A model generated the notes under the pieces. It did not search any database. It saw only the letters and a list, made by a program, of their open reading frames with translations, and was not told the origin of the DNA. From positions 808,501 through 872,500 of the forward strand of contig OZ014413.1 in the NCBI GenBank assembly GCA_963965975.1: a stretch of 64,000 bases of DNA, given 5' to 3'. Below are positions 4,623 to 48,983 of this stretch, piece by piece. The stretch's first letter is position 1. Each line of letters starts with the position of its first letter. Origin of the DNA: Xestospongia bergquistia (taxonomy: Eukaryota; Porifera; Demospongiae; Haplosclerida; Petrosiidae). The translations under genes and the position numbers were made by a program.

Positions 4623-6353
4623 CTAATATTCTGGATCAATAGTTGTGCATAAATTTAAGTCAAGTGCTAGCTGATGGTTTACTTCTTCAGGTGGTTTTTC
4701 TCCAAATCCTCCATAGAGAATTTTACCATAACTTGTGACTTTAAACATTTGTGTACCACCAGCCTCAGCTTTGAAAGCTTCTAGTTTATCTTCATCAATG
4801 AGGACATAATACCACTTTTTAACTAGCTTGACTAGCTCTGGTTTGTGAAACATACGATCTTCCCAGGTAATTGTACTTATATCATCTAGTCCACATTTCT
4901 GATCATCTGCATTGCCACAATTAAGTTGTCTAAAGTCACCCAACCTTGTTTTTTGTCCTGATGAGAGCACTGTATGGAAGTCTGTCACAACAACTTTCTT
5001 TCTTTCATCAAATTTAATAGCTTCAGTCACATAACATAATGCAGTAGCCTCTTGATCGATATCACAGGAACTCCATACATTAAGTAAAATATTTCGACTT
5101 CTTGTATGATGACCACAAGATGGTATTTTTAAGTTGTCTAATTGCTTGGCACACTCTTTAATCCAGTTGCCAGAGTAACTACAATCAGTGTTTATGGTGA
5201 GTCGTTTCACTTGAAATTGAGCCATATATATACCATAGATCTCCTGAAAGGTGATGACACCATCTTTAAAACACCAGTTACCTGTGTTCTTCTCTCCATT
5301 ACCAGTATAAAAGATGATAGCTAAATAACAGCAATACATTATCTGTGTAATACATGTGTTATCCTCTCACCTTTATCTTGATTCCTTCTTTTGCATTCTT
5401 GAAGAAAGATTGTTATCTGTTCCAAGTAATAAAATTTGGAGTGTTGTGCTCCAAGGTGATCAAAATAAGATATAATACAATCACAATTTGTAGCCTTGTC
5501 ATGTTTTTTCTTGATAAGGTCAATCTTATCTGTTATCCATTGATCTGATCCTTTTAGATGAGGGGGTATTAACTTCTGTACAACTGTAATGGTCTGAGAT
5601 TTCACTTCTCCATACGAACCAATGATCAGAAGGTCATAAGAACCAGGAGGAAGATTTAGTGCATTTGACACTTTGTTATTGCCAGATTTAGATTCATCTT
5701 TCACCTTACCAATGTGTGTACCATCTCTATAGTCATCCTTCTCTAAATTTAAGACAGATTGGACAATTGGACTACTAACATTACTATATAATTCACCTTC
5801 TTTCTCTCTCAATTGTAAAGTTAGAGTTGATATTTTCTCCTGAAATATCTCAATCTCTTTTTGTTTCTCTACTAATAGTTTATCAGTAGCTATAGAACAT
5901 AACCATATATGGTATGTACTACTAACAGTACTATAGCTTACCTTCTTTCTCTCTGGTCAATCTCTCAATCTCTTCTTGTTTCTCTACTAATACCTTATCA
6001 GTAGCTATAGAACATAACCATATATGGTATGTACTACTAACAGTACTATAGCTTACCTTCTTTCTCTCTGGTCAATCTCTCAATCTCTTCTTGTTTCTCT
6101 ACTAATACTTTATCAGTAGCTATATAACATAACCATATATGGTATGTACTACTAACAGTACTATAGCTTACCTTTTTTTTCTTTTGTCATCCTCTCAATC
6201 TCTAATGTCTTTGCCTTACTCATTCTGTCCAATAGTTTTATGTTCTCTATTTACATTAGGTACATAGTAATATCTCAATTAATGTACATGTACCTAATAA
6301 ACTGTCAACTGATAATTGATCGTGTGGTTGTTCACTATCCATACTGGTAGTAA
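4623..6353 (-). CDS. Coiled-coil caspase-like protein, copy 1 (His of the dyad replaced)
   Basis: Exons: 6294-6353, 6172-6246, 6057-6119, 5942-6004, 5371-5889 and 4623-5320, all joined in phase 1. The N-terminal part is coiled coil (ENIKLLDRMSK, then DKVLVEKQEEIERL repeats). The last exon carries a caspase/metacaspase-like fold: a hydrophobic strand, FYTGNGEKNTGNW where YTGHGE is expected, and then TINTDCSYSGNW. The usual catalytic His is Asn here, although the 15.9 kb copy keeps His. The DCSYSG loop has Ser where metacaspases (DSCHSG, DCCHSG) have the catalytic Cys, with a Cys one residue earlier. Peptidase activity is therefore doubtful. An ATG lies in the first exon (6340-6342), but paralogues use that exon internally, and the upstream exons at 6480-6700 are degenerate. 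Confidence 0.7.
5890..6171 (-). repeat. Tandem exon-intron units, copy-1 caspase-like gene
   Basis: Two 63-nt coiled-coil exons (5942-6004, 6057-6119) are separated and flanked by 52-nt introns at 5890-5941, 6005-6056 and 6120-6171. Period 115 bp. The introns are almost identical and each holds the palindrome CCATATATGG. Confidence 0.85.
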
Positions 6354-6479
6354 CTAAAGTATACAAAAATATTTGAACAGAACTAGCTAGCTTCATCTAA
6401 TAAAACAATTGTAGGATGACATTTTCAGTTAAAAACTTGTTTAATTAGAGTTTAATGTGAAATATCCTTACCATTTTGA

Positions 6480-6939: not shown

Positions 6940-8130
6940 GGTATACAGCAAAAAACACAAGGTTAAAACTACCCGCAATGGTTGTATCAACTACAATACA
7001 TGTAATTAAAGTGACACTCCTGGGTAACTTTAACTAAAATGGGTTAATGTAACTAAGTTGGTTGAAGCTACCATATTGACTGACTGATTCTATAACTAGA
7101 TTAAGTAGTTTAACACCAAAATAACAATGTAATCTAGTTATTAAAACAAATTGGTAAAGGGAGAAAAAGCAATATTAGTTTACATAACATAGTGTTTTAG
7201 ATAAATATAAGTCAAACCATCTGTTAGTTTATGACCATGATAAACATTATAATCAAATGAATCAGATATTAATGACTGATGTGAAAAAACAGAAATGACA
7301 TAGGAATAACAATGCACTTAAAATAGAATTTGTCATTTCAACCATTGTCCTTGTTACCAGAATCTCATCAAGTTGATGTAAGCCCAATATTGAGTTACCA
7401 CAAAGCCAAAAACTGGTCTAACTTAATATGTGAAAAGCCAACTAGAAGCCAAAAGTAGTCTTTGTAGTTTATTGTCCAATAACTGAAATAATGAGGGAGA
7501 AGTAGATACTATTTCAACCTAACTAATTAGGTTAATTAAGTTGAAATAGTATCTGCTTATAGCTTCAATTGAAGCCATGATTCGACTACTATAGCAAAGT
7601 GGGTGTAAAAGCAATGTGGTTGTAGATGCAACTAGTTTGTTTCATGCTTATTGAGTTACACTAGTATTGGCCTTGTAGGAACTTTGAATTGGGCTTACAT
7701 CATATTGATGTAACTGTAGTAATGAAGACCTTAGTTAAAATGACAACATTCATTTTTCAGTGTGGCTATCAAAATAAAGTACATTACATGATGAAACCAA
7801 ACAAAGAAGCATGTCACTATCAATGATTTATATTAACAATATTAGTTATAACAACCTATTTTGTTAGTTATGATAACTGCAACATATGTTAGAATCAAAC
7901 CTACTAAGTGTTACAGTAACCACAGTGCATGAAGTTAAAGTAACAGCAATTGTTACCTCAACTACTTATGTCAGACGTTACTTTAACTATAGGTGTGGGT
8001 TATAATCACCAATACATTTGACAGTTGCTTTAACTATTATTTTCATTGGGTTATTTTAACCCAAGACATGGGTTACCTGAGTTGCAGGTGTTTTGACCCA
8101 AACGTTTGGGTACTTTCTACCCATCACTTT
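6940..8130. mobile_element. Non-coding repeat element, copy 1, about 1.2 kb
   Basis: This block interrupts sequence that is continuous in paralogues (the ttttacatggta context near 18000, 18720 and 46200). The left end (acagcaaaaaacacaaggtt) and the reverse complement of the right end (acacagtaaaaagtgatggg) are weakly similar. The part from about 7376 to 8125 recurs at 10841-11563. Repeated short motifs (gggtta, aacccaa) fill it and no long ORF is seen. It is probably a non-autonomous element; family not recognised. Confidence 0.5.
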
Positions 8131-10445: not shown

Positions 10446-10840
10446 AGACCGAACAGACAAATTCACTGCTATAACTTTACCTTTGAAATGGCATTGTATT
10501 AGTTTAGTTTTATCTCAACCTTTAGTTGAGATATTGTTAGAGTTTTTGATTAATAGATTTTTTTAGTTTTGAACCTTTTGATCATTATAGAAGAAAAATA
10601 TAAATTAATTATACATCACTAAAGTACAATCAGTCAACTGCTCACTGATCCAGTTCCTTGATTTAAATTTAAGAATACATAATGATCACTGGATGGTGGT
10701 GGTAAAAATACGTGTAAGAAGTCATTTGCTAATTTATTTTGCCAAATTATATCATATGCAGACTTGCCAATAAAAACCTGTTCAATCCTGTACTGGTTGC
10801 TGTTTCTCAAAACAAGTCTTTTTAAAATAGAAGTAAAGTT

Positions 10841-11563
10841 GGTGTAAGCCCAATATTGAGTTACCACAAAGCCAAAAACTGGTCTAAATTAATATGTGAA
10901 AATAGAAGCCAAAAGTAGTCTTTGTAGTTTATGTCCAATAACTGAAATTATGAGGGAGAGGTAGATACAATTTCAACTTTACTTAGTATCTGCTTATAGC
11001 TTCAATTGAAGCCATGATTCAACTGCTATAGCAAAGTGAGAGTAAAAGCAATGTGGTTGAAGATGCAACTAGTTTGCTTCATGCTTATTGAGTTACACTA
11101 GTATTGGTCTTGTAGCAACTTTGAATTGGGCTTAGATCATATTGATGTACCTGTAGTCATGAAGACATTAGTTAAAATGACAACATTCATTTTTCAGTGT
11201 GGCTATCAAAATAAAGTACATTACATGATGAAACCAAAAAGAAACATGTCACTACCAATGATTTATATTAACAATATTAGTTATAACAACCTATTTTGTT
11301 AGTTATGATAACTGTTAGAATCAAACCTACTAAGTGTTACAGTAACCACAGTGTGCAAAGTTAAAGTAACAGCAATTGTTACCTCAACTACTTATGTCAG
11401 ACGTTATTTTAACTATAGGTGTGGGTTATAATCACCAATACATTTGACAGTTGCTTTAATTATTATTTTCATTGGGTTATTTTAATCCAAGACATGGGTT
11501 ACTTGAGTTGCAGGTGTTTTGACCCAAACGTTTTGGTACTTTCTACCCATCACTTTTTACTGT
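10841..11563. mobile_element. Repeat element, copy 2 (5'-truncated)
   Basis: Closely similar to 7376-8125, including the end motif tactttctacccatcacttt, with several small deletions. The left about 430 bp of copy 1 are missing. Past its right end (from about 11570) the sequence returns to the duplicated intron context (cacattagtgtgatttatct). No coding potential. Confidence 0.55.
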
Positions 11564-11784: not shown

Positions 11785-13085
11785 TCGATGGTTTTTCATC
11801 ATCTTCCAATTCTAAATCACTCTTTCTTTTTGGATGTGATCTAAAAATTTCATTGTTGCATGCTGACATCTTAACTTCCATACTGCTAGATACTACAGCA
11901 CATACAAGTGAGGAAATATTACATTATACATATATTATTTCTGTACATCTTGGACATACCTTCCTCTTCTTTTGGTGTTGATATTTCCTCTCCTTCTCTC
12001 TCATATTTAGCAGGCCCAATTTCTTTACTTCTAGTATCTAATTCAATATTATTACTTGTATTCAAAGATACATTCAATTCACCTTTAACATCATCTACAT
12101 CTATTTCCTTCCCTTGTTTACTGGAGTTCAGCCTCTTTCAAAGTAGAGCAACTTCCTTTTCAAGCTCTCTCACCTCCTATATATCAACATACACATGCAT
12201 ATATCTAGCATTAATCATCTCTTACCTTGTCTCTTGTACGTTCATCCCAAACAGTACAATAGCCAATGCTTAATTTAATTAATCCAATTCCCCTCTTATG
12301 TGATCAAAACCGTACTGATAAGTAGGTTGAAGATGGACCTCTGTTATGCAAGAGATTATAATAAACATACATGCTATAATCACTTACCATACTCTCTGAG
12401 TATATCATTTCCTATACGTACTGTGTATTTAGATTGTAATAAGACAGTACCAAACACTCTCAACATGTTAGGATCCTCAGACACTGTACCAGACAGTGCT
12501 CTTAATGGATTATCAGTTAGCAATCCTCCTGAGCTCTGTATCTCATCAAATGTCTCCTTAGAGATAACTCCCTCTGTATATAACATCTGTGTCACCTCCA
12601 TAGGAAGAACAAGTTTTGAGAGTCTTGCAGAATATTTCTGGAGTACTTTACTGGAGTGGTCTTTTTGCTTCTGAACTGCTGTTATAATTAAATTTTGTAA
12701 TATAAATGTTTTCATTGCAACTCTTACTTTTTGTTACTTATTCTATGTAAATCTTACTTCACTTACCAGTTAAATTTGACAGTTTTTCTTCAATTTCTTT
12801 CCTGGTATCTCCCACTGGTCCACCAATATCCAGAAGAATGTCAATAAAACATTTATATCGTTGTTGTATCTCTAAAACACTCCCACAAGACTCAAAACCA
12901 GTTTTGAACTGTTCAAATATACTAGGAAACTCCATATTTAGTGAGGATATAAAGTGTGCTGCATATGTCCTGCTAACAAAATCCTCCATGTCTCCCTTCA
13001 GTACGTTGCGAATTCTGTCATAGTGTAGGACGAAAACATCAATAACAGCTCGTCTGTAGCTTGTAATATCGACGGTTTCAGCCAT
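11785..13085 (-). pseudogene. CARD-like/CARD-like gene, copy 2, with central domain deleted
   Basis: Exons 12767-13085 (MAETVDITSY) and 12388-12678 are intact and like those at the left edge. The third exon starts normally at 12340 (VHLQPTYQYGFDHIRG), but about 600 bp are missing. It jumps straight to the last strand of the domain (LIKLSIGYCTVWDERTRDK) out of frame, with a stop at about 12288. The coil exon near 12130 has a TGA (VALL-stop-KRLN), and the basic exon 11785-11888 is shifted by one base. An in-frame upstream Met at 13256 would add 57 residues. At most a short two-domain protein could be made. Confidence 0.65.
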
Positions 13086-13534
13086 TGTACAAACATAATG
13101 GGCAAGGTCCTGATAACTATCAACATGCGCATGCTCAGTAAGCCAATAATTAGGGTGGAGCTTATTTGTGGGTTTTTGGATATTTACATTAGTTGCCAAA
13201 AAATCCTCATTTAGGGTTAAACAAGAAGCATTAATATCTTTGCTCACCTCTGCCAACTTATCTTCTTGTTTCTCCTCCAGATATATTGAAAGTTTATGAA
13301 TTAATTCTTTAAATTATGACAACTGTTCATCTACAATTTTGCGTTTACTTTCAAATATCTCACAACATTCTCAATTAGTTCTTCATGTTTTTACATTTAT
13401 ATATATATATATATCAATTAGTAGGTTTTTATATGTACCTTTCTACATCTCATCCTTTTAAAAAGAAAATATAACATAAAACAATATTATAAGTGGGAGA
13501 TAATGATGTCATCTTTGACCAATCATATTATAGG

Positions 13535-15910: not shown

Positions 15911-18900
15911 CTAATATTCTGGATCAACAGTTGGCATAAATTTGAAATCGAGCTGACGGTTTACTTCTGCAGGTGGTTTTTCTCCAAATCCTTCATAGAG
16001 AATTTTACCATAATTTGTGATTTTAAACATTTGTGTACCATCAGCCTCAGCTTTGAAAGCTTCTAGTTTATCTTCATCAACGAGGACATAATACCACTTT
16101 TTAACTAGTTGGACTAGCTCTGGTTTGTGAAACATACGATCTTCCCAGGTAATTGTACTTATATCATCTAGTCCACATTTCTGATCAGCTGCATTGCCAC
16201 AATTAAGTTGTCTAAAGTCACCCAATCTTGTTTTTTGTCCTGATGAGAGCACTGTATTGAAGTCTGTCACAACAACTTTCTTTCTTTTATTATATTCAAT
16301 AGCTTCAGTCACATAACATAACGCAGTAGCCTCTTGATCAATATCACAGGAACTCCATACATTAAGTAAAATATCTCGACTTCTTGTATGATGACCACAA
16401 GATGGTATCTTGAAGTTGTCTAAATGCTTGGCACAATCTTTGATCCAGTTGCCAGAGTAACTACAATCACTGTTTATGGTAAGTCGTTTCCCTTGAAATT
16501 GAGCCATATATATACCATAGATATCCCGAAAGGTAATGACACCATCTTTAAAACACCAATTCCCTGTGTTCTTCTCTCCATGACCAGTATAAAAGATTAT
16601 AGCTAAGTAAGAGCAATACATTATCTGTGTAATATATGTGTTATCCTCTCACCTTTATCTTGATTCCTTTCTTTGCATTCTTGAAGAAAGATTGTTATCT
16701 GTTCCAAGTAATAAAATTTGGAGTTTTGTGCTCCAACGTGATCAAGATAAGATATAATATGATCACAATTTGTAGCCTTGTCATGTTTTCTCTTGATAAG
16801 GTCAATCTCGTCAGTCATCCATTGATCTGATCCTTTTAGATGAGGGGGTATTAATTTCTGTACAACTGTAATGGCCTGAGATTTAGACACTTCTCCATAC
16901 GAACCAATGATCAGAAGGTCATAAGAACCAGGAGGAAAATTTCGTGCATTTGACACTTTGTTATTGCCAGATTTAGAATCATCTTTCACCTTACCAACTA
17001 AATTTAAGACAGATTGGACAATAGGACTACCAACAGTATTATATAATTCACCTTCTTTCTCTCTCAATTGTAAAGTTAGAGTTGATATTTTCTCCTGAAA
17101 TATCTCAATCTCTTTTTGTTTCTCTACTAATACTTTATCAGTAGCTATAGAATATAACCATATATGGTATGTACTACTAACAGTATTATAGCTTACCTTC
17201 TTTCTCTCTGGTCAACTTCTTAATCTCTTTTTGTTTCTCTACTAATACCTTTTTAGTAGCTATAGAACATAACCATATATGGTATATACTACTAACAATA
17301 CTATAGCTTACCTTCTTTTTCTCTGGTCAACTTCTCAATCTGTAATGTCTTTGTCTTATTCATTTTGTCCAATAGTTTTATCTTCTCTATTTACATTAGG
17401 TACATAGTTATATCTCAATTAATGTACATGTACCTGATAAAGTGTTAGTTAATGATTGATCTTGATCTTGTTGTTGTTCACTGTCCATACTAGTAGTGTC
17501 TAAAGTATATGACGATTGTAATCGCAACAAAAATATTGGAACAGAACTAACTATTAATATAAATGCTTTACTAAATATTAATAATAAATTAATTTTAGTT
17601 CTCTGTTTATATACATACATGCATTTATAATATAACTTTCTTAATTTATTTATTGATATACAAATTGAATTGAAAATTGATACATTATGTATGTATATAC
17701 CGACACAGTACTAGAAATAAGTATATATTAGTATTGTTTTATGTTTTAATTGTATATATTAATTATAATGAATAATGAAATGGGCACACAATGTGCTCAT
17801 TTTATTTTATTGTTGTATACAATCATCGAAATCAACAAATGAAATTAAACTGTATCCTGTAATAATTGATGCATATAGCAGCTAATGGACTTTGATAATC
17901 CTAAGTGGAAGTACTGTGAAAATGTGATTTTTCATGTTTAAAAATGAAATCATTGACCAATCAGTTATTGAGTAAAGATATCAAAGAAATATCAGTTTTA
18001 CATGGTAAAAGCTAGTTGTACATATCAGTGATTTATCTCATTCTTATTAGTGGCTCTTGAATGTAACTACTGAAGTGTGCTTTAAACTATGCCTAAGATT
18101 CTATACAGACTCAATGCATAGAAATAGTAGCATCTTCAAACAATCTTAATATGGTTTTAGTTCCAGCTTAAATCGTGAGTACATTGTACAATGTCATATA
18201 CTCACTTGGTATCTTTGATGGTTTTTCATTATATTCTAATTCTAAATCACTCTTTCTTTTTCTATGTGATCTAGAAATGTCAATGTCATGTGCTGGCTTC
18301 TTAACTATATGCTGAGTGGTATCAGTGAGTTTGTGCTTTCTCTTTGGTAGTGAGGGATGGGTCTCTATCTCCTGTATCAATAAATAATATATTGATCAAT
18401 TGCTGCAAAGTAATTGAAGCTTACTTCATGAGTCACAACTTCAGAAGATATTGTGGGTTCTCTAATAGTGTCTCCAATCAGTGGTATCCCTACATTAAGT
18501 AAATACAAATGACAAATGATTGAATTAATAATAAACTTAATTATGCAAGATATGGTAATAGAAATTAATGTTTTATGTCATTGAAAGTGTAATAATCTAA
18601 TTAACTAATAAACTTATATTGAAACTAAGGTTTGTCACACTACAGATGTTTTGCTTTATAGATTATGAAATCACTGGTCAATCAGTTAGTGAGTAAAGAT
18701 ATCAATGAAATATTAGTTTTACATGGTAGAAGCTAGTTGTACATCAGTGTGATTTATCTCATACTTGTAAGTGGCACTTGAATGTAACTACTGAAGTGTG
18801 CTTTAAACTATGCCTAAGATTCTATGCAGGCTCAGTACATAGTAATAGTAGCACCTTCAATCAATCTTAATATGGTTTTAGTTGCAGTTTAAATGGTGAG

Positions 18901-19040: not shown

Positions 19041-20752
19041 AATAATATCACATTGACAGTATCAGATACTAGGGATAAAGAGTTTGAGCCTGCTAAATAT
19101 GAGAAAGAAAGAGAGAAAAAGCAGTTAATATCTCAAACTCTTTATCCCTAGTATCTGATATTGTCAATGTGATATTATTACATATTCAAAGAATACAAAC
19201 AGGTCACCTTCTCTGTCAATGTTTTTTTTCAGTTCTTGTTTACTGTAGTTCAACTTTTCTTTGAGTAGAGCAACTTCCTTTTCAAGCTCCCTCACTTCCT
19301 ATATATCAACAAACATATAGAAATATTATCTAGTGTTATTTATCTCTTACTTTATCTCTAGTATGGTCACTCCAAACAATGTGGTATCCTATTGTTAGTT
19401 TAATTACTTTAATTTCAGATCCTCTTAGTAGGCCAATATTCTTTTTAGCTTCCATCAGTAGAATATCCATCATATGTTGTGGAGCATAACAGGTCACAGT
19501 GATAGAGTTGTCTTCTTTTGCTTCTTTAACCAAAACTCTCTCAGCAAAATCTCCAAATGTCTTCCACAGCACCACTTTTATCTCTGTCAGTGTGTGTTCA
19601 TCTGTCTCCCATTCCAAAACAAACTCAATACTCTCACATTTGAGAAGGCAAGATGGACTTGTTGTTGCAGTCATTATGCCGACTTTGACCTTCTCACAGA
19701 ACTTTTCAACCTTTAATTGATAGTCTGCAATAAGGTCCTTAGCCTCTTCAATCTTGTAATGAGTGACAATGGTCTTCAAGCAGGCAATATTAATTATGGT
19801 ACACTTTTCCTTAACTGTATCCATAACATCATCAAATGATTTTGCTATAGATAACTGAGGTTTTAGCTCACTGAAAGTCCTTCCAAGAAACCTTTTCAAT
19901 TTTTCCAGACGAGAATTAACACAGATAAACGAAGATGGTAAAATAGCAGATTTTATAAGTGATATAACATCCTCAAAAAAATCTCCAAATTCTCCTCTCA
20001 TTACATCAAAATCACTCTGATAAATTGGTGAAAGATGAACTACTTTAGGAAGAGATTTGACTATGAAAAATACGTATATAATCACGTTCAAAAGTACAAA
20101 ATTAACTTACTGTCTTCAAGTATATTTTTTCCAACATTTACTGTATCTTCTGATTTTAATAAGATTGTAGCGAATGCTCTCAGCTTGTTTGGATCCTTAG
20201 ATACTGTACTAAGCAGATCTCTCAATGTGCCGTTGGTTAGAGACCCTCCTGATCTCTCTACTTCATTAAATATCTCCTTTGAGATGACACCCTCTGTATA
20301 TAACATTTGTGTCACTTCGTTAGGAAGAACAAGCTGTGACAGACTTTTAGAATGCTTCTGAAGTAATTTATTGATGAGGGAATGAGCTACATAATAAATA
20401 AATGTAGATGGCAATATTTATTATAAAGGCTAGATATATAAATCTCATTTTCTGTTAATACTGTCAGATATTCCTGAGCGATTGCATTTTGACCAATAAT
20501 TTCTATCCTTAATGTCTCTATAATCTCTCTTCTCTTAGCATTGGGATTGGTACTTAGCCACAGTTCAAACATCTTTAAAGCTTTAAAACCACTATCTTTG
20601 TATTGCTGTTCGATTTCTTCCAGCTTATTGGAATCTAGCTTGAGGAGTACACCGAACTGGTACCACCTAGTACTAATTTTTACATGTTGGAACATCTCAT
20701 CCAGAGTCGGTCTTTCGTTTAAAAAGGCATCAAAGTCTGCTAAGTCTTCCAT
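15911..20752 (-). CDS. Death domain-CARD-coiled-coil-caspase-like protein
   Basis: Exons: 20462-20752 (Death domain, ISTRWYQFGVLLKL, WLSTNPNAKRREIIETL); 20111-20386 (CARD-like, LVLPNEVTQMLYTEGVIS); 19351-20039 (conserved domain: helices, then CESIEFVLEWE and NSITVTCYAPQ strands); 19208-19298 (coil); 18938-18991; 18425-18489; 18206-18371 (basic, RSHRKRKSD, possible nuclear signal); 17434-17499; 17312-17386; 17197-17259; 16653-17144; and 15911-16602 (caspase-like, FYTGHGEKNTGNW, TINSDCSYSGNW). The catalytic His is present, but the loop is DCSYSG, with Ser in the usual Cys place. The first exon lacks a phase-1 GT donor. A phase-0 donor at 20461 joined to an acceptor before 20357 restores frame, giving about 996 residues. 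Likely a death-fold signalling protein; role inferred. Confidence 0.65.
17145..17311 (-). repeat. Tandem exon-intron unit, copy-2 caspase-like gene
   Basis: One 63-nt coil exon (17197-17259) between two 52-nt introns of the shared type (17145-17196, 17260-17311). This is the shortest array in the window. Confidence 0.8.
19035..19185. repeat. Fold-back repeat with 54-bp arms around an inverted exon relic
   Basis: Arms 19035-19088 and 19132-19185 are inverted copies with one mismatch. The 43-bp loop (cctgctaaatatgagaaaga...) matches, in opposite orientation, a minus-strand exon stretch near 12000-12050 (cctgctaaatatgagagaga). It lies in an intron of the 15911-20752 gene. Confidence 0.8.
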
Positions 20753-21500: not shown

Positions 21501-21828
21501 TAGTTAAATTTGATAGTTTTTCTTCAATTTCATTCCCAACAACTTCCACTGGTCCACCAATATCCAGAAGAATATCAATAAAACATTTATATCGTTGTTG
21601 TATCTCTAAAATACTCCTACACGACTCAAAACCAGTTTTGAACTGTTCAAATATACTAGAAAATTCCATATTTAGTGAGGATATGAAGTATGCTGAAAAT
21701 GCTTTGCTAGTAAACTCCTCCATGTCTCTCTTCAGTACATTGCGAATTCTGTCATAATGTGAGACGAAAACACCAATAACAGCTCGTCTGTAGCTTGTAA
21801 TATCGACGGTTTCAGCGTTGGAAGCCAT
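21501..21828 (-). pseudogene. Orphan CARD-like first exon, copy 3
   Basis: Open from MASNAETVDITSYRRAV to a normal GTAAGT donor and very close to the exons at 765-1092 and 12767-13085. The expected second and third exons are absent; TIR and hairpin sequence follows instead, then the start of the Death-domain gene. Translated alone it would give a single-domain protein of about 112 residues ending in the intron. Confidence 0.6.
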
Positions 21829-31000: not shown

Positions 31001-31125
31001 CTAGCCTGAAGTGCTACCCCAGCAAGTTCATTTATACATTTTTCTAGTACTGATTTAAGGTCAGCGTAATGGGAAGTCAAAATATAGACAACAGCTCTTT
31101 TGTAAGTTTTTAAGCAGCCGGCCAT
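25035..31125 (-). CDS. CARD-like-Death domain-coiled-coil-LRR protein (gene A)
   Basis: Exons: 30774-31125 (CARD-like helical domain, TYKRAVVYILTSHYADL to DLGGPVAIVGNEVDSKL); 28617-29688 (Death domain LLIEVSRHLQLIDHIKL, then CTWFNYESFKVVVDILG and DYNIGSIELVFSLP regions); coil exons 28448-28562 and 28300-28405; 27349-27408; 27227-27301; four 63-nt coil exons (26767-27174); 26520-26714 (Ser/acidic linker); three more coil exons (25895-26178); and the LRR exon 25035-25555 (INYLRLVSC, IKTLTLDND, LERLILKEC). All junctions match in phase and sum to about 975 residues. The layout resembles a receptor or scaffold: death-fold head, long rod, LRR sensor end. No NACHT domain is seen, so it is not a classical NLR. 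Confidence 0.7.
25895..26178 (-). repeat. Tandem exon-intron array, gene A distal part (3 units)
   Basis: Exons 25895-25948 (54 nt, lacking the last three codons but still phase 1), 26001-26063 and 26116-26178, with 52-nt introns. A decayed fourth unit lies near 25800-25860 and contains an in-frame TAA. Confidence 0.85.
26715..27226 (-). repeat. Tandem exon-intron array, gene A proximal part (4 units)
   Basis: Exons 26767-26829, 26882-26944, 26997-27059 and 27112-27174 are spaced exactly 115 bp apart. Each encodes a version of DKVLVEKQEEIEKLTREK. Introns are nearly identical to each other. Confidence 0.9.
29780..30733. mobile_element. TIR element, about 0.95 kb, in the first intron of gene A
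   Basis: The ends carry inverted copies of CAGAATGTTAACTC (29785 and around 30715-30728). The paralogous intron of gene C (48558-48640) is only about 80 nt and lacks this block. A second TIR element is nested inside. No coding capacity. Confidence 0.6.
30142..30481. mobile_element. Nested MITE-like element, about 340 bp
   Basis: Left end tagtctggcgagctagcccc and the reverse complement of the right end tagtctagtgagctatcccc are imperfect inverted repeats of about 30 bp. Same TIR family as 20869-21060. Inserted into the element at 29780-30733. Confidence 0.6.
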
Positions 31126-34738: not shown

Positions 34739-37700
34739 TTAAAATAGATGATCACTAACAACTTGAAAACGAACTATCTTATTTATAGCTTGGACTTGTA
34801 ACAAATCTTGTTTCCCATCATTACTGATGTTGTGACAGCTGATTAGCGATAGTTTCTTTAATGTCGTATTAATGGATAACATTTCACACATATGAGGTAT
34901 ATCTTCATCTGTGATGGTATTATCATACCAAAACTTTAATTTCTTAAGTGTAGTGTTATTATGTAGTGCTTTCATTATCTTCTCTAGACTGTTAGGAGTG
35001 AGAGGAGATGATTGAAGACATAGATATTCTATTGACTTGGTATTATTGAGTACATCACTTAGCTTGGAGACACAATGATCATCAAGAGGAGTGTGCCCAA
35101 TATGAAGCTTCCCTACCGGACATTTATGATCGATCTTAGTTAGCAGTGCTTGTAAGCTCTCACGAGATGCTCTGTTTAGCCAAATCTCCCAGTGTTCCTG
35201 TTTCTTTGAAATTATTTCACCGATCACTTCCTCACATTGCTTTACAGTAGGTAGGGTCAGTGTAACATTCAACATAACACATGCTGAGTCTTCTATTCAA
35301 TGATAAAAAAGTCAGTATAATAAAATGTATATTATGGTTCGAAATCTATTATATAATATGTATAATATATAAATACATAAGTACACCAGAGTTATGTGTG
35401 TATATTCATGTATTAATGCTGCATGATTGAACATCACTAGTACAGTATTGTGGTAACATGCTAATGTGCTATATTTTGGTAATATGTACTTAAACAGCAT
35501 TTGCAAACAAAATATTCAAGTTGTTAGTGTTTGCTGGAGCTACATCCGCTCTAGGATTTATGACTTTTAAATCTGTGTGTCTAGGATATGCCACCATTAT
35601 TATTCCTAGTAATGATAAATGTGTACATTATCAAGAATCCTCTCTCCCTCTCTTTTACACATACAGATGGGTAACATTTTAAATGATAAAGGATAAATAT
35701 AAGACTATAAAATATTCTTAAGGCATAAAAGTTTCAAAAATACATAAATGAATGAGGTTGAACACATATATATGCACACACACACACATACTTCCTAATC
35801 TCTTCTTGTTTTTCTACTAATACTTTATCAGTAGCTATATAACATAACCATATATGGTATGTACTACTAACAATACTATAGCTTACCTTCTTTCTCTCTG
35901 GTCAACTTCTCAATCTCTTCTTGTTTCTCTACTAATACTTTATCAGTAGCTATAGAACATAACCATATATGGTATGTACTACTAACAATACTATAGCTTA
36001 CCTTCTTTCTCTCTGGTCAACTTCTCAATCTCTTCTTGTTTCTCTACTAATACTTTATCAGTAGCTATAGAACATAACCATATATGGTATGTACTACTAA
36101 CAGTACTATAGCTTACCTTCTTTCTCTCTGGTCAACTTCTCAATCTCATCTTGTTTCTCTACTAATACTTTATTAGTAGCTATAGAACATAACCATATAT
36201 GGTATGTACTACTAACAGTACTATAGCTCACCTTCTTTATGTCTGGTTAACTTCTCAATCTTTTCTTGATTTTTTTTATCATTAGCTATAGAATATAACT
36301 ATATTGCTATTTGTATTTTTTGTCCCATAATCATTAGAGAGTCCACCCATGTACTGAAACACCAGGTGTAGGGATGTAGCAATCCCTACATATAAGTACG
36401 TAGCGAGTACTTCATGCAGTTTAATTCACAACACAAATTTTTCACATCACACTGCTACTTATATAGGATTGTTATATCCCTATTTTGTTTCTGTAGTTTT
36501 GGGGATTGTTATCCTTACATTCTCTAGTTGTTTAGCTAAATGGCTACAACTTATAAGAAACTATTATTTCCTAAACTATGAGGAAGCTATGTAGCCTGTT
36601 TCCAAGCACTTTTTAAATTGCTTTTTTACGGAAAGAGAATAACAATTTTGTTGCTTAGCTAGTTGCCAGTTCTTCACTATGGCAACCAATTTTTAAGACA
36701 ATTAAGGCTATAAAAAACCATTTGAAAGCATCATAGTGTAATAGAGTGGTGGCCATTTTTGAGTGCATGAACCCATCAATACATATAATAAGCACCAATA
36801 ATTATTATACAATGAAGCTGTATTTAATTATTATTATGGAGTGTTCCTAATATATGTAGATGTATATGTGAAATACATGACAGTGTTGTTGGTCATACCT
36901 TTACTTTCTTTGAGAGACAATTTCAATTTCTCAACCTCCTTTTGTTCTTCTTTGAGTTCATTCTTGGTAACTGAATGTAACTTCTTTGTATCAACTATAT
37001 AATTAATTGATATAATTAGTTTATTATAATTATGATAGTTTATACCTTCATGTTGTTTGTCTTTAGATTTTAAGTCATCTATTTCTGCAGACATTTCTCT
37101 AATCATTTTTAATTGCATTTCGTTTTGACTTTTCATTTCTCTTTCCATCATCAATCTAAACTCCTAAAATATATCAGATAGTATATTATAGTGTCTAAAA
37201 TATTGACTCATTCCTTACCTCATCTCTTTTGTACTTATCAAAAACAACACAGTGTCCAACAATAAGTTTAATTAATCCTCTCTCTTTCAATGATTCAAGA
37301 GTTTCTTGAGCTTTGGCAATAAGTAGAGTTGTTAGGATGAATGGAAAGGTACATGTCACAGTTATGGAGTGCACCTTCACAAATACTTTCACTTGAACAA
37401 TCTTGGCTAATCTCTCAAAGGAGACTGTTAATATATCCTCGACATCTCTTAATGCATCTCTTAATGCATAATCTTCTTCAAACTCCCAGTCCAAAACGAA
37501 TTCAATTGTTTCACATTTGAGAGGAGACGAAGTTGATACCACTTCAAATGTTTCCGCTAAGGCAAGGCGAGCAGAGATGTTGTCACAAAACTTGTTTAAT
37601 TCGTTTTTATAATCTTCAATATGTTTCTTAGCCTCAAGAAGATTAAAAGAATCCACAATGACCTCCAAACAAGTGATGTTAATCAATGAACATTTCTTTC

Positions 37701-39084
37701 TCACAATGTCTAGTACATCATCAATTGAGTTAGCATCTGTTAGTTGAGACATAAGGCGAGGATTGTAATCTTGAAGGGAACGTTTTAACTTGTCGACTGG
37801 TAGTTGAGCTGCATTAAAGACATCTCGAACTTTTGTGAAAAATATTGCAAATGCTGCTCTGATTGAGTTAAATTTCTGACTAAACACTTCGGGTATAATG
37901 TTATCAGGAGGATGAAATATTTGCTCTACATAAACAAAATAAATATTCAATCAATTATTATTACACTTACTGTAATCATTAAAAATCAAACCAGCTACTT
38001 GTGCATTTTCAATACGTAATACACTAGCAAACACCTCCAGATTATGATAATTGTTGCGAACAGCATGACGTATAGCTTTTAACAAGACTATTCTTCTTTC
38101 TGACTCAGATCGTTCAATAACTTCTATAGCTTTTAATGTTTCCTCTGATAATACTTTCTCTCTAAAAAGTATTTGTGCTACACAGAAAGTATTGTAAAGA
38201 AATCGAGAGAGAGAACCATAGTGATAGCGTAATATATCACTAGCATGATCTTCATGACTCATCTGATCATTGATACTCCTTGTTAATCTCCTCTGAAGAC
38301 CTGACTCCTTATCATCTGGATATTTAAGAGCTAAATGAAGATGGATTGTTAGACTTGCTTATAATAAACTATTTGATCATTACTCACTATATTCACTGTA
38401 GATATTATCTCCTAATAATCTCATCTCCTCAAATTTGGACAGAGTTGTAGCTAAAATTTTGAGCTTTTGATGATCTGAAGACACTGCTGTAGATATGGCA
38501 TTCAAGAGAGTTGTCTTCTTATCATCTAACGAGCTCTCCAGTGTCTCTATTTCATCCAGGGTTATTTCACTGATACATATCTCACTATATAATAACTGAG
38601 ACACTTGTACAGGATAGATTAAAGTCTGAGACAGAGCAGCATAATGGTGTTGTAGAATACCACTAGCTTCATTAGGAGTTTGTTCTGGTACTATATAGAC
38701 ATATATATTAAGAGACATTTATTAATTTATTTTTAATCAGATAATTTGGTTCACTGACTTACCATTATTGCTATACAGTTCTCTCAATTTTGTTTCATAA
38801 TTCTGAGCAAGAGTGTTCTCCTCTATGGTACCCATCTTCAATGTGTCCACAATTTGTCGCCTTGTAGCTTGTGGATTTGTATCCAGCCATAGCTCATACA
38901 TCTTTGATATTTTGTAAGTGAAACTTCTTGGTAGTTCTTCAATTTCATTCAATTTCTTAACATTGAGTTTAAGCAGGATTCCCATCTGATGCCATTTAGT
39001 ACTAATTGGTACAAGTTCACATAACTCTTCTAGAGTTGGTCTTTGGTTTAATATCTCTTCATATAACATATCTCTGGCAGCCAT
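34739..39084 (-). CDS. Death domain-CARD-CARD-coiled-coil-LRR protein (gene B)
   Basis: Exons: 38763-39084 (Death domain, ISTKWHQMGILLKL, WLDTNPQATRRQIVDTL); 38388-38684 and 37971-38330 (two CARD-like helical domains); 37219-37925 (conserved domain with CETIEFVLDWE and HSITVTCTFP strands, as in the 20752 gene); coil exons 37046-37163, 36899-36994, 36232-36285, 36117-36179, 36002-36064 and 35887-35949; LRR exon 34739-35289 (IEYLCLQSS, LKKLKFWYD, LKKLSLISC). A last coil unit at 35792-35834 is cut short by a CA repeat and would shift frame; skipping it gives an open protein of about 897 residues. The head is like the caspase-like gene at 20752 and the tail is like genes A and C. Confidence 0.65.
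35792..36285 (-). repeat. Tandem exon-intron array, gene B (5 units, last one truncated)
   Basis: Exons 36232-36285 (54 nt), 36117-36179, 36002-36064 and 35887-35949, plus a remnant at 35792-35834. Introns are 52 nt with CCATATATGG. The remnant stops at a (CA)n tract (35773-35788). Confidence 0.85.
36290..36890. other. Intron, no exon seen
   Basis: AT-rich intron of gene B between coil exons. It has no repeat unit or open exon that I can support. Confidence 0.5.
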
Positions 39085-41840: not shown

Positions 41841-43530
41841 TTAAAATAGATGATCACTAACAACTTGAAAACGAACTATCTTATTTATAGCTTGGACTTG
41901 TAACAAATCTTGTTTCCCATCATTAGTGATGTTGTGACAGCTGATTAACGATAGTTTCTTTAATGTTGTATTAATAGATAACATTTCACACATATGAGGT
42001 ATATCTTCATCTGTGATGGTATTATCATACCAAAACTTTATTTTCTTAAGTGTAGTGTTGTAATGTAGTGCTTTCATTATCTTCTCCAGACTGTTAGGAG
42101 GGAGAGGAGATGATTGAAGACATAGATATTTTATTGACTTGGTATTATTGAGTACATCAGAGAGCTTGGAGACACAATGATCATCAAGAGGAGTGTGCCA
42201 AATATGAAGCTTCCCTACCGGACATTTATGATCGATCTTAGTTAGCAGTGCTTGTAAGCTCTCACGAGATGCTCTGTTTAGCCAAATCTCCCAGTGTTCC
42301 TGTTTCTTTGAAATTATTTCACCGATCACTTCCTCACATTGCTTTACAGTAGGTAGGGTCAGTGTAACATTCAACATAACACTTGCTGAGTCTTCTATTC
42401 AATGATAAAAGTCAGTATAATAAAATGTATATTATTATGGTTCAATATCTATTATATAATATTTATAATATTATAAATACATAAGTACACTATAGTTATG
42501 TGTGTATATTCATGTATTAATGTAGCCTAGGTGTTTGCAAAAGAAAAGAACGCCTGGTAACTACTGTTTGCGCATGCGTTTAATTTTCATAGGTTTCTTG
42601 CAAAATAGTATACTCCGTCTACTATGATGTAAAAAATTTCTTTTACCACAATGTTAGACTATTTGTGATGGCTACTTATAGTTCTGGTAGAAACTTTTCT
42701 GCTGCTCTACTCTATGCTCTAAAGTAGCTAGGAAGGCCAAATCTATCTCTTAAAAAAGAGCAACTTTTGTTCGTTGAAGCTATATATATATATGACGGAA
42801 AAGATGTCTTCGTGTGGTTTGTATCTTGATCCCAACAGCACTGAACAAGTTTGTTGCTCTTTTGCCTTCCACTAAATCTCTGCACAACCGACAAACTTGA
42901 CTAGCCATGTTTAAACTCGCATAGTGAATGAAATGTCATCAATATAAACCCAGCCATTTATTCGTCATTTAATTTAAATGTTGTAATTATGATGTCACTA
43001 TATTTGCTTAAATTACAATAATTGCGCACATGCGTAAGCAGTAGTTACCGGGTGTTCTTTTCTTTCGTGAACGCTTGGGTACAAGTCTAGTATTAATGCT
43101 ACATGATTGAACATCACTGGTACAGTATTTTGGTAACATGCTAATATGCTGTATTTTGGTAATATGTACTTAAACAGCATTTGCAAACGAAATATTATAA
43201 ATATAAATAAAAATAATAGGTATTTGCTGGTGCTAGGATTTATGACTTTTTAATCTGTGTGTCTAGGATATGCCACCATTATTATTCCTAGTAATGATTT
43301 ATATGTACATTATCAAGAGTCCTCTCTCTCTCTTTTATATATACAGATGGATAACATTTTAAAAATGCACATTACCATTAGTGTATAAGGATAGAACATG
43401 AATAAACAAAAACATAAACAAACTTTAAATGATAAAGGATAAACATAAGACTATAAAAATATTCTTAAGGCAAAAAGTACATCATAAGTGTCAAAAGTAA
43501 ATAAATGAATGAGGTTGAACACACATATAT

Positions 43531-43575: not shown

Positions 43576-45287
43576 AAACTTAGTACTATAGCTCACCTTT
43601 TTTCTCTCTGGTCAGCTTCCTAATCTCTTCTTGTTTTTCTACTAATACTTTATCAGTAGCTATAGAACATAACCATATTATAGTATGAATGACTAACAGT
43701 ACTATAGCTCACCTTCTTTCTCTCTGGTCAGCTTCCTAATCTCTTCTTGTTTTTCTACTAATACTTTATCAGTAGCTATAGAACATAACCATATTATAGT
43801 ATGAATGACTAACAGTACTATAGCTCACCTTCTTTCTCTCTGGTCAGCTTCCTAATCTCTTCTTGTTTTTCTACTAATACTTTATCAGTAGCTATAGATC
43901 ATAACCATATTATAGTATGAATGACTAACAGTACTATAGCTCACCTTCTTTCTCTCTGGTCAATGTCTTAATCTTTTGTTCTGTCTCTACTAATACTTTA
44001 TCAGTAGCTATAGAACATAACCATATATGGTATGTGTACTACTAACAGTACTATAGCTCACTTTCTTTCTCTCTGGTCAACGTCTTAATCTTTTGTTCTG
44101 TCTCTACTAATACTTTATCAGTAGCTACAGAACATAACCATATATGGTATGTACTACTAACAGTACTATAGCTTACCTTCTTTAAGTCTACTTAACTTCT
44201 CAATCTCTAATGTCTTTGCCTTATTCATTCTATCCAATAGTTTCATCTTCTCTATTTACATTAGGTACATAGTAATATCTCAATTAATGTACATGTACCT
44301 GATAAAGTGTCAATTGATGATTGATCTTGTTGTTGTTCATTATCTATAGTGGTAGTAACTAAAGTATACAACAATTGTAGTCATAAAACATTGGACAGCT
44401 ACTAATATAAATGCTTTACTAAATAATAATTAATCAATTTATAACAAAATTATGTATGGTTCATTGGTTGCTTGTTCAAAGAGTGAATTTTGTTGTATAT
44501 AGTAACTTATTAGCTTACAAACAGTATATATAATAAGATATTCTATTAATCTTAAATTGCCATCATATTAAAGGTTAAAATTAATTAAATTCTCTTGAAT
44601 GTACTAAATAATTAGTCAACTTATCCACATCAACAATCAAGTTATACATATTGTTATCATAAGATATAGAGTATAGAAGTACCCAAAACTTGATGTTTAT
44701 ATTAAATTTAATTTCATTTTATTCTATATTTGCAATGTTTGAAGGTGTTGCTTGACATCACTGAAATCATTTTGACTATGTTTGTATAGCTTAATCCTTT
44801 CAAGAGATAACTACATTATTCAGCTACCACTTGTAAGTTAAATGATATAATAGCACTATGAGCTTAACTTAATACAATGGTTAATATTTTTGTAAGAAGT
44901 TTTCAGTTTATAAAGGCAATCCTATTTTTCTAACTTTGTGAGGTCTAACGACATTGTCATTTGATAATAAAAAATGATACTAAAAAAGAAATTAAAGGAT
45001 AGTTGTACAATTTTCTGATAACAATTCATTCCACACAATTAAGCAAAAAGCTCACTGTATCACTACATGAAATTGTTAGTGAAATGCTTTTCTCAACTGT
45101 ATATCAGAGTAATATAACAATTTCTAAAATCTTACTATAGTTTTTAAATTAGTGTTTACAGCTATGAATGATAAAACTCTGACACAATCATTGTTAAAAT
45201 AGATTGGATATTTTAAATGATTCACGGTCACTTTTTATTGCCTAGCATATGTAGCTAACTAGGCAGTCCTATAATTGTTTTGGATCA

Positions 45288-45322
<35 letters not shown>

Positions 45323-48300
45323 GCCTTTGTGTGTCCATTTGCTTCATTTTTTTATTGTTGTATGCAATAATTAAAAGCAACAAATGAAATTAAACTGTAT
45401 CATGTAACAGTTGATGCATATAGCAACCAATGAATTTATTAATCCTAAGTGCAAGTGCTATGAAAATGGGTGTGACTTTTCATGTTTAAATTTTCTCACT
45501 ATAGCTATATACCTTGCTTTTCTATCTATATACATATATCTAACATTCATAGCTAGTATTCCACAGATACTGCTGCTAAATATTCAATATCTATAGCTTT
45601 CTCTAGTCAGTGTTTCACTATAAAGTCAGTGTCATCTAATAAAATAATTGTAGGATGAAATTTTCAATTATAATCTTGTTTAATTTAATTAGAGTGTCAT
45701 GTAAAGTATCCTTACCATTACCGTGAGTACTTTGTAACTGTTCAAAGCTATTGAACTTATTATCTTCTATTTCTAAATCACACTTTTCTTCTGAATGTTC
45801 CATTGGTAGTGAAGGATGGGTTTCCATCTGCTGCTATATCAAAAAATAAAATGCTAATCAGTAAATGTGAAGTATAAATTAAACCTACTTCATGAGTTAT
45901 AAATTCAGAAGATATCATAGGCTCTCTAACAGTGTCTCCAATCTGTGGTACTATAGGTATCCCTGCATTGAGCAAATATGCAAATGACAAATGATTGAAT
46001 TATTAATAAACTTGATTATGCAAGATATGGTAATATTAATTAATGTTTTGTGTTATCGAAAGTATAATAATCTAATAAACTAACAACCTTATATTGAAAC
46101 TAAAGTTTGTTGCACTACGTATACAGCTGTTTTTGCTCTAATTATTATGAAATCATTGGCCAATTAGTTATTGAGCAAAGATATTAAAAAAAATATCAGT
46201 TTTACATGGTAGAAGCTATAGTTGTACATATCAGTATGATTTATCTCATACTTGTAAGTGGCACTTGAATGTAACTACTGAAGTGTGCTTTAAACTATGC
46301 CTAAGATTCTATACAGACTCAGTGCATAGCAACATTAGCCTCTTCAAATGATCTTAGTATGGTTTTAGTTCTGATTTAAATGCTGTACAATGTCATATAC
46401 TCACTTGGTATCTTTAATGGTTTTTCATCATCTTCCAATTCTAAATCACTCTCTCTTTTTCTATGTGATCTAGAAATGTCAATGTCATATGCTGGCTTCT
46501 TAACTTCATGCTGAGTGGTATCAGTGAGTTTGCGCTTTCCCACTGTTAGTGAGGAATGGGTCTCCATATGCTGTATCAATAAAGAACATACCAATCAATT
46601 AATGCAAAGTAATTAAACCTACTTCATGAGTTATAAATTCGGAAGATATCATAGGTTCTCTAATAGTGTTTCCAATCTGTGGTACTATAAGTATCCCTAC
46701 ATTGAGCAAATATGCAAATGACAAATGACTGAATTATTAATAAACTAGATCATGATTTATACAAAGGAGACATGGTAATATTAATTAGTCCCTTGTTTTA
46801 TTTAAAATGTAATAATTAAACCACACATTCTAATTAACTATTATAATAATGGTCAATAGATAATATTTATATCTTTTGGTAATAAGGCAAGAAATAAAAT
46901 AACATCAAATTTAGCACAGTGGCTACAAATTCAAACAGCAATGAAAAAAGATATTAATTTGTGCTTTTATTACAAGCACTATAATAATGAATGAGCATTG
47001 AATAAAGTTATTTTAAGCTTTGGTTTCAATCATTCTAATCAGCACAGAGACAATAAACATAGCTAGTCACATTGATCAAAAATTTGACCACACTTAAATA
47101 GTAAGTCTTAGTACACAATTGGTCATTTTAGGGGCTTTTCTGGTAATTATTCAAAATTTAGTCAAACGATTTGTGTATTATAAAACAATTAGACTAAATG
47201 TACCTTTTGTTTCTTTAAGGAGCGATTCTAACTCAAAGATCTTTTGATCTTTCAAAGCCAGCTCTCTTTTATAGTCTGTGAACTGACTTTTGATTTCCTG
47301 AAAAAATATGATTCACATAAATATTGGAACAAATCTACCTCATCTCTTTGTTTTATCTTTTCAATTTCCAGCAATGAAGTATCTTCTTTTTCCAGCTGCA
47401 TCAACTTGATAAGTAGAGATGTTTCTGCATTTTCAGAATAAGATCTAACAAATACAGAAAGATGGTTTTGAGTTTTTGAAGTAATGTTATAGCTACTTAC
47501 AGCACAGTAACTAAATCAATATTAACTTCATAATAATTTGACTTTTTCCACTCAATAAATGTAAAAAGCTGAGATTTAGGGGAACTTTCATTTAATACAA
47601 CTGTTGGAAGACTAAATATTAATTCAATAGATCCAACGTTGTAATCTTCAAAGTGTAAGACAGTCCCATCTTCTAAGCCTAACAATTTAGCAAGGTTACG
47701 TTGAACTGCTTTTATTTCATTTCCAGATATGGAGAGATCTGTAGGGACTTTAAAAAGTAGATTGGTACATTGAGATTGACTGTGTGAACCACATGGTATC
47801 TCAAAAATAGAGCGCTTTAGATAAGGTGTGAGATGATCTTCTTCATATGTCTTCAAATATGTTTTTTCATCTTCATTTCCTAAAATCTCAACTACAACTT
47901 TAAATGACTCATAATTGAACCATGTGCAGTGCTTAGATAACTCATCAAGCACATCAGCAATACTGTCATCTTTATGAAAATTAGGTTGATATGAATTGTC
48001 ATAACTACGAACAAAAGGCTTAACTAACTTTGGATCAACCTCACGTTTTCTAAAAGATTTTATAAGTTGGACAACAAAGATTGCATAGGCTTTACGTACA
48101 TCTTGATTCTCATCCATTAACTGGTTTTTCACTGCTTCCTTCTCACTGTCTGTTAAATCTTTCCAGTTACGGTAACGACCTTTTGCTTTCTCTGGTGCAA
48201 TGTGAAATGTTCCTGTCAGTGGCTCTGTTGTATCCTTCTTAGAAAGATACCTCAAAATGAATTCAGCACCAACCCTCTCTTCAATTTTCAAGAAAGCTTT

Positions 48301-48983
48301 TACAAGTTCCACAATAGTAGCAGCACTACCATTTATTGCTTTCCATTCCCACAGTATAGCAATCTTTTTTTCTACATCATCTTGTTTGTCATGTGTAATA
48401 CTCTCCAATGTTTCACTTGATAAATTCAGACAATGACCTAATTTAATGTGGTCTATTGATTGTAAGTGTTGAGAGACTTTAATCAAAAGACTATCATCAC
48501 TTTCTTTATCCAGGTCTTCATATTGTAAACCATACGGATCCAAGAGAGTTAAAAAATCTAAAATCAGGGAAGTGAAATTTAATGATAAAATACTAGCAAA
48601 AGATATTATGTAGGTGGATAATTATGTCATAATCACATACCTACTAAAGTAGACAGCTTTGTATCTAGTTCCTTACCAGCATCTTCCACTGGTCCACCAA
48701 GGTCTTCAAGGATTTGCGTAAGTTTTCGACAATGCTTCATTATATCTTCAATATTCCTCTTCAACTGAAACCCTCCTGTGAACTCATTGACTATGTCAGC
48801 AAAACATTTACTATATTGATCATGAGTGCACTGGACAGTAGCTTCCTTAACTGGACCACTTATCAAACCAGCTGAATATGCTCTCTCGGCAAATGTCATT
48901 ATAGATCCTTGTAGTATTGAGCTAAGGTTAGCGTATTGGGAAGTAAATATATAGACAACAGCTTTCTTGTAAGGCTCTGCCAT
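41841..48983 (-). CDS. CARD-like-Death domain-coiled-coil-LRR protein (gene C)
   Basis: Exons: 48641-48983 (MAEPYKKAVVYIFTSQYANL, CARD-like); 47501-48557 (Death domain LLIKVSQHLQSIDHIKL, then CTWFNYESFKVVVEILG and DYNVGSIELIFSLP regions); 47339-47444 and 47204-47297 (coil); 46623-46696 and 46405-46570 (RSHRKRESD basic segment); 45889-45962 and 45716-45833 (second copy of the same exon pair); 44299-44358; 44177-44251; five 63-nt coil exons (43597-44124); LRR exon 41841-42391. All phases fit and the sum is about 1010 residues. Exon 44299-44358 has no Met here, which shows it is internal in this family. The intact NSDHL gene starts its 3' end 216 bp upstream. Function inferred: innate-immune or cell-death signalling. 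Confidence 0.72.
42523..43090. mobile_element. 568-bp TIR element with 8-bp target duplication
   Basis: Target duplication TATTAATG at 42515-42522 and 43091-43098. Inner inverted repeats of about 40 bp share AAAGAAAAGAAC and GGTAACTACTG. Gene B's matching intron (near 35415) has the uninterrupted site, so this is a recent insertion into gene C's last intron. It is hAT-like by target-site length. Confidence 0.8.
42783..42908 (-). CDS. Short ORF with CxxC motif inside the TIR element
   Basis: 41 codons from ATG to TAG. It starts MASQVCRLCRDLVEGKRATN and continues with LFSAVG, which resembles the start of a ZAD-type zinc-binding domain (CRLC, then a NLFS loop). Later zinc ligands are missing. 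It may be a captured first exon or chance. Confidence 0.3.
43532..43574 (+). repeat. (CA)n microsatellite
   Basis: About 21 CA units in gene C's intron next to the last coil unit. The matching tract in gene B (35773-35788) is shorter and abuts a truncated exon. Confidence 0.9.
43597..44176 (-). repeat. Tandem exon-intron array, gene C (5 units)
   Basis: Exons 43597-43659, 43713-43775, 43829-43891, 43945-44007 and 44062-44124, all 63 nt. Introns are 52-54 nt. Three of them have a variant core (ccatattatagtatgaatga) in place of CCATATATGG, so part of this array expanded on its own. Confidence 0.9.
44360..45710. other. Intron, no exon seen
   Basis: Long AT-rich intron of gene C. It resembles the corresponding intron of gene A (27410-28290) in part and holds a (GT)n(AT)n microsatellite at 45291-45322. 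Confidence 0.5.

Follow-up and report, generated by a model that had tools for sequence, protein, structure and literature searches.

The minus strand of a 64,000-nucleotide stretch of the genome of the sponge Xestospongia bergquistia (C3:808501-872500, hereafter the window; the genome has 146 Mb in 21 contigs) carries five coil-bearing genes, here named A to E, and the start of a sixth, F. The five have in common a tandem array of 115-bp units, each composed of a mini-exon and a mini-intron, that stands between a front part (head) and a back part (tail). We consider it likely that the cluster is a lineage-expanded death-fold family whose fronts and backs are joined by this array, which would serve both as a linker and as a point of exchange. 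The front would comprise one to three Death-like domains and a TRADD-N-like domain, and the back a variable domain.

Two properties of the array carry this proposal. Each unit is in phase 1 on both sides, so that the frame is preserved however many units there are, and every phase-1 head is compatible with every phase-1 tail. Units are also nearly identical between genes with unrelated heads and tails, and thus provide homology for unequal crossover or gene conversion. An exchange at the array would change the length of the linker in either direction and would move tails between heads.

In the protein, the linker probably acts as a helical, charged spacer. Tails made of leucine-rich repeats (LRR) probably offer a binding surface, and the ZU5-like and caspase-like tails are probably regulatory or adaptor parts. 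The head most likely engages partners through death-fold interactions, in innate immunity or in cell death, an immune role being suggested by the family to which the genes belong.

The 115-bp unit and its reading frame

The coil exons that an earlier note on this DNA had described as shared are indeed present in all five genes (A, 48983-41841; B, 39084-34739; C, 31125-25035; D; and E, all on the minus strand), but they are in fact a tandem array of exon and intron, which Tandem Repeats Finder detects in every gene with a period of 115-116. The 115-bp unit consists of an exon of 63 bp, which encodes 21 residues and has phase 1 at either end, and an intron of 52 bp. On the coding strand, the commonest exon is ATDKVLVEKQEEIEKLTREKE and the intron is GTAAGCTATAG...TCTATAG. 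Since 52 is not a multiple of 3, a retained intron would shift the frame, and the array makes sense only if it is spliced. The module borders seen are also in phase 1, as the same note had proposed, although the head and linker of gene A include some phase-2 and phase-0 introns.

We compared the window genes with further loci of the same genome (numbered L009 to L032) and counted 179 distinct candidate units, 123 of which have both splice sites by our own pattern. The exon measures 63 bp in 112 of these 123, 60 in five, 54 in four, and 69 and 67 in one each; the reading frame is kept in 122, and one has an in-frame stop. The genome holds at least 223 unit matches (our whole-genome counts are lower bounds), with identities of 90-99%; among the matches listed, eight are on contig C12 and the rest on C3. 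The arrays seen span 0.1-2.5 kb, and the longest that we counted has 19 units (L022). In the unit exons, nonsynonymous changes are rarer per site than synonymous ones (ratio 0.57), and in the 21-mer position 13 is Ile in 112/112 and position 6 is Leu in 111/112. In D and E, no intron separates a coil unit from the caspase-like exon that follows it.

Among nine neighbouring genes, the array is common at 80% DNA identity or more in all 36 pairs; it is the sole such DNA in eight pairs and, in a ninth, all but one base of it. Upstream of its array, gene B has no DNA at this identity in common with any of the eight other genes. The 378 pairs of 28 arrays, at self-chosen thresholds, share DNA upstream only in 35 cases, downstream only in 10, on both sides in 11, and on neither in 322; a second test, of continuity at the array edge, gave both sides in 24 pairs, 5' only in 95, 3' only in 21, and neither in 238.

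Probable exchange between genes

Heads come in two main types. Type-1 heads (A, C, and L029) have a helical first exon and then a long exon with Death, helical, and beta domains; type-2 heads (B, L016, L021, and D-like genes) have exons of death-domain (DD) and/or CARD-like type, and then a helical plus beta exon. Hybrid heads have a type-1 first exon followed by a CARD-like exon, with no DD between them (E, F, L031, L032, and L023). The union of a type-1 first exon with type-2 exons, which had been pointed out for the left-edge gene F, is thus confirmed there but is not special to it.

One and the same LRR tail is found on three heads: type-1 (A), type-2 (B), and hybrid (L031). Gene B does combine a DD-first head with an LRR tail, as had been claimed; its tail is 96% identical to that of A (89% for L031), but that of C, thought to be the same, has only 44% identity to B. 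In the LRR-tail tree, A, B, and L031 group together (support 99/99) apart from C and L029, whereas the head tree groups L031 with L032 (96/99) and B with L016 and L021 (95/99). Such incongruent per-domain trees had been predicted beforehand.

The join is visible in L031, a chimera at the DNA level of a caspase-tailed-type front and a B-type LRR end. It matches the caspase-tailed locus L032 in five blocks of 89-96% between L031 positions 1883 and 6844, and nowhere after; it matches B at 93.75% over 1568 bp from position 6601 onward, and nowhere before. Between 6611 and 6832, 16 diagnostic sites are shared only with B and 2 only with L032, which places the switch at the 5' edge of the array. We infer that an exchange event produced L031. 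Together with the trees, this chimera bears out the earlier suggestion of exon shuffling between neighbours.

Several points weigh against our reading of the array as linker and exchange point. Splicing of the array is predicted from the DNA. Unit exons diverge from the consensus by 0.0415 and unit introns by 0.0299; as the exons are not below the introns, this suggests that the units are homogenised as DNA rather than strongly selected as protein. The amplitude of heptad (3.5-residue) hydrophobic periodicity seen in the 21-mer was reached by 5107 of 20000 shuffles; this period is not significant and we do not call the array a proven coiled coil, so that the common rod proposed earlier survives as a common linker but not as a heptad coil. 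The beta domain of the heads has a putative 'uS' turn as in TRADD-N, a likeness drawn from motifs, as are the putative RRM-like TRADD-N fold of the heads and the putative caspase fold of the tails. One 0.5-kb block of L031 sits in a different order in L032. The approximately unbiased (AU) tests, which reject a tail clade of A, C, and L029 (p 0.034) and a head clade of B and L031 (p 0.027), are modest, concern groups that we picked after seeing the architectures, and carry a long-branch warning. Finally, the pair counts given above are not independent and vary with the thresholds, and overlapping BLAST pieces were summed in the count of DNA shared by the 378 pairs.

A rival explanation is concerted evolution as the only process, in which gene conversion homogenises the array while the head-tail combinations are old and arose by segmental duplication or fusion with breakpoints elsewhere. 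The unit intron is as conserved as the exon, and there are large segmental copies: A and B are 96% identical across 3.3 kb, a sharing that exceeds chance, and C and L029 are 95-99% identical through head, array, and tail. Yet the homologies of L031 to L032 and to B meet at the array edge within about 60 bp, and the lack of shared DNA upstream of the array of B also speaks against this explanation. We regard it as unlikely.

We give similarly little credence to partial decay, by which the DD exon of D, gene E, and the caspase-like copies without His would be dying and the shuffling would be neutral debris. The loss of a donor site in D and of an exon in E, the change of His to Asn in 6/14 caspase-like copies, and the broken type-1 pieces at 32786-33534 and 39881-40631 do look like decay. 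But A and B are intact, nearly every unit keeps its frame (122/123), and the DCSY[SA]G motif is retained in 14/14 copies.

It is quite improbable that heads, rods, and tails are separate genes that merely follow one another in order. The architecture was read from the DNA, with head-array spacings of up to 2-3 kb and with a gene E that lacks a CARD/beta exon, but A and B read open, in consistent phase, through all their exons, tail exons have phase-1 acceptors, and the coil unit is fused to the caspase-like exon in D and E. Very improbable, lastly, is an assembly artefact by which near-identical arrays led the assembler to join wrong flanks: short repeats of 90-99% identity are a known risk, but the halves of L031 differ by about 4-11% from L032 and by 6% from B, too much for a mis-join of those two loci, and the arrays are below the usual length of the long reads from which so few contigs would seem to have been assembled.

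If arrays are indeed used as linkers and exchange points, then long reads from a few individuals could be used to measure both tail exchange and linker length. A bolder version, possible but doubtful in our view, is that the array is under selection in its own right as an adaptor for recombination, with germline crossover reassorting heads, linker lengths, and sensor or regulator tails. Each lineage or individual would then have its own combinatorial set of innate receptors.

Gene models, heads, and tails

In the window, the LRR tails belong to A, B, and C and the caspase-like tails to D and E. The model of gene A (16 exons, 1010 aa) and that of gene B (11 exons, 900 aa) have no internal stop, and all their inner splice sites are GT/AG; the 3' parts of C, D, and E read open when entered in phase 1. 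The features are as follows (positions in the window, all on the minus strand).

48641..48983 (-): gene A exon 1, first exon of the type-1 head; helical, CARD-like according to the earlier note, ATG start in phase 0, GT donor, without a Pfam match
47501..48557 (-): gene A exon 2; Death (Pfam, 28.4 bits), helical domain (HCTWFNYE), TRADD-N-like beta domain with a G-S turn
44177..44251 (-): gene A leader coil exon, 75 bp, directly before the array
43597..44124 (-): gene A array; five 63-bp mini-exons with mini-introns between
41841..42394 (-): gene A LRR tail; single exon, phase-1 start, stop included, LRR relatives in PDB
38763..39084 (-): gene B exon 1, DD-type (type-2 head); ATG, donor intact
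37971..38690 (-): gene B exons 2 and 3; two CARD-like exons, CARD support weak
37219..37925 (-): gene B exon 4; helical domain and TRADD-N-like beta domain
35887..36285 (-): gene B array; one 54-bp and three 63-bp mini-exons
34739..35292 (-): gene B LRR tail, from the gene model and identity comparison
30774..31125 (-): gene C exon 1, type-1 head, from the gene model
28617..29688 (-): gene C exon 2, with Death, helical, and TRADD-N-like domains
25895..27174 (-): gene C arrays; four 63-bp mini-exons, one variant exon of 195 bp, and after it mini-exons of 63, 63, and 54 bp
25035..25555 (-): gene C LRR tail, different from that of B (44%)
21502..21828 (-): gene D probable first exon, type-1; donor intact
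20444..20752 (-): gene D DD exon; 5' splice site AT, not GT; Pfam Death 27.4 bits
19208..20386 (-): gene D CARD-like exon, helical plus TRADD-N-like exon, and linker exon
17197..17259 (-): gene D mini-exon; the unit after it is continuous with the caspase-like exon
15911..17144 (-): gene D caspase-like tail, split into two exons (16653-17144 and 15911-16602); motif TGHGE .. DCSYSG
12383..13313 (-): gene E hybrid head; type-1 first exon 12768-13082, CARD-like exon 12383-12733
5942..6119 (-): gene E array; two 63-bp mini-exons and a third unit continuous with the caspase-like exon
4623..5889 (-): gene E caspase-like tail (5371-5889 and 4623-5320); TGNGE, with Asn in place of His
1..1134 (-): gene F at the left edge; type-1 first exon at 766-1092, CARD-like exon at 375-731, helical/TRADD-N-like exon at 1-381

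A fifth unit of the gene B array, near 35790-35836, is broken off at a GT repeat, and in gene E we found no open reading frame (ORF) of at least 40 aa matching the CARD/beta exon. The helical/TRADD-N-like exon of F continues, in L030, to a caspase-like tail. The last intron of gene A has about 570 bp that are absent from B (42523-43089), resembling a miniature inverted-repeat transposable element, with 60-nt inverted arms (42526-42585 and 43020-43079) that are 77% identical.

Gene D had been thought to start at its DD exon (20752). This exon has AT at the donor, where L009, L011, L012, L014, L024, and L025 have GT, and the upstream type-1 first exon (21828-21502) keeps its donor, so that D more likely starts at the type-1 exon. 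Two adjacent near-perfect palindromes (94% and 89%) lie between these two exons (21120-21256).

Of the head domains proposed earlier, Death is well supported and CARD weakly. The matches of A and D exceed the Pfam Death cut-off of 22.6, a Death match is found in 17/17 type-1 exon-2 proteins at E<=1 (best 1.1e-10), and the type-1 Death domain is related to the FADD death domain in PDB (E 9.1e-5). CARD is matched at E<=1 by 7/16 CARD-like exons, of which the best (gene D) reaches 20.6 bits for a cut-off of 23.9, and comparison of these exons with PDB sequences gave no death-fold match. The first exon of type-1 heads has no Pfam match. Exon 2 of these heads has at least 112 matches in the genome. 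The last parts of type-1 and type-2 heads are distantly alike (hhalign E 5e-4, probability 32%). The uS motif of TRADD-N is a tiny residue followed by Ser, or at times Cys, in the beta2-beta3 turn. By our own reading of the turn position, 14/17 type-1 beta domains have Gly and then Ser (5) or Cys (9), and type-2 domains have Ser in 14/14, with a preceding tiny residue in just 1/14.

Behind the array we found three kinds of tail, the LRR and caspase-like ones already noted and a third, ZU5-like. LRR tails are related to LRR chains in PDB, including RNase inhibitor (E 8.2e-13) and the LRRs of NLRs; the tails of B and C have no Pfam LRR match. The third kind stands after or near the array in ten loci (L010, L013, and L016-L023). 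With a Pfam ZU5 cut-off of 21, L023 passes (23.9 bits) and L019 falls below (17.5); the tails of L010 and L021 have no Pfam ZU5 match and are tied to L023 by BLAST. Phase-1 starts are seen for the tails of A, B, C, and L027 (LRR) and of L010, L018, L019, L021, and L023 (ZU5-like), the last five and L027 being judged by eye. Also by eye, L018 and L020 have an LRR exon ahead of the array, perhaps internal and with what may be a phase-1 donor. In L018 (4681-9489), an LRR exon, an array, an ORF that looks DD-like by eye, one more unit, and a ZU5-like exon follow one another, a domain set like that of PIDD.

The caspase-like tail carries the motifs TGHGE and DCSYSG, with His in 8/14 copies and Asn instead in the others. 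Going by a D-x-C pattern, the place of the nucleophile would be taken by Ser. None of 22 tail pieces matches Peptidase_C14, none of the genome matches to this family (at least 105) lies at a caspase-like tail, and profile comparison with four caspases of the same genome failed (0.4%). Searches with this tail in Pfam, NCBIfam, and PDB sequences and between profiles returned nothing, and the idea of this tail as an effector, put forward earlier, is not supported. A second cluster of caspase-like tails, some in a single uninterrupted exon, is located at C8:1493554-1620335.

The spaces between genes include broken type-1 exon 2 copies (39881-40631 and 32786-33534, minus strand) and three copies of a 106-aa exon piece with 96-98% amino acid identity (32168-32488, 39257-39646, and 49199-49519, minus strand), which we take to resemble the C-terminus of a sterol dehydrogenase; one copy has no Pfam match. 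Direct repeats of 771 bp, 91% identical (7370-8140 and 10836-11566), flank a plus-strand ORF (9741-10445) without a Pfam match. Tandem repeats of 46 bp lie upstream of neighbouring heads (six copies, 3038-3315; three copies, 14503-14642). The neighbours of the cluster are CLN5 (51700-52419, plus strand), a WD40 protein (53837-54439, minus strand), and a Nudix-type domain (57054-57344, plus strand).

Comparison with known systems

The class of architecture was already known from the Death-like plus TRADD-N proteins of Amphimedon. As described in the available part of PMC8195603, the NCOA6-clade proteins of this sponge have one to three N-terminal Death-like domains, a TRADD-N-like domain with a G-S/C turn, a variable C-terminus that includes LRRs and caspase, and a very large lineage-specific expansion; ZU5 is mentioned there for TRADD-N proteins generally. 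By domain description our cluster is the same, with a constant Death-like and TRADD-N-like front, a variable back, and a large expansion, but the repeated mini-exon linker seen here and crossovers at it have no mention in that part of the paper. We found no published report of a frame-neutral linker of repeated exon and intron, or of exchange at it, among sources that include the available parts of PMC8195603 and PMC12909245. Of the features that mark the clade, the N-terminal Death-like domain, the variable C-terminus, and the large expansion are present in the Xestospongia genes.

PIDD1, UNC5, and NLRP1-CARD8 combine ZU5 with death-fold domains (PMC3210808, PMC7794386). They have LRR, ZU5, and death-fold domains within one set of proteins, as here. 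They differ from the cluster genes in domain order and in linker. The zebrafish NLR-B30.2 genes are a large immune-type family for which exon shuffling is discussed in the part of PMC4852459 available; these are NACHT proteins, whereas our exchange point is an exon-intron minisatellite and the window has no NACHT among the matches listed. All of the NACHT matches listed, at least 95 in the genome, lie outside the window and outside the first 10.4 Mb of C3, so that we rejected an NLR identity and agree with the earlier note that this is not a standard NLR. Pseudo-orthocaspases have a caspase-like fold motif with altered His and Cys positions (PMC6426788, in the part available); they carry Tyr-Ser where our tails carry His or Asn with DCSYSG, a likeness at the level of motifs.

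Hundreds of sponge death-fold proteins with changing tails were known from domain lists, but not the way in which the tails change. This cluster makes a physical device visible: a frame-neutral repeat of exon and intron, common to genes that share nothing else, with the join of a chimera at its edge. Small repeated coding units are familiar from fibrillar collagen, whose units are small 54-bp exons with introns, and from the coding minisatellite of PRDM9 zinc fingers, and in both the copy number sets the length of the protein. The array described here differs from them in that the repeated unit includes an intron as well as an exon, varies little from gene to gene, and is placed between domains that can be exchanged.

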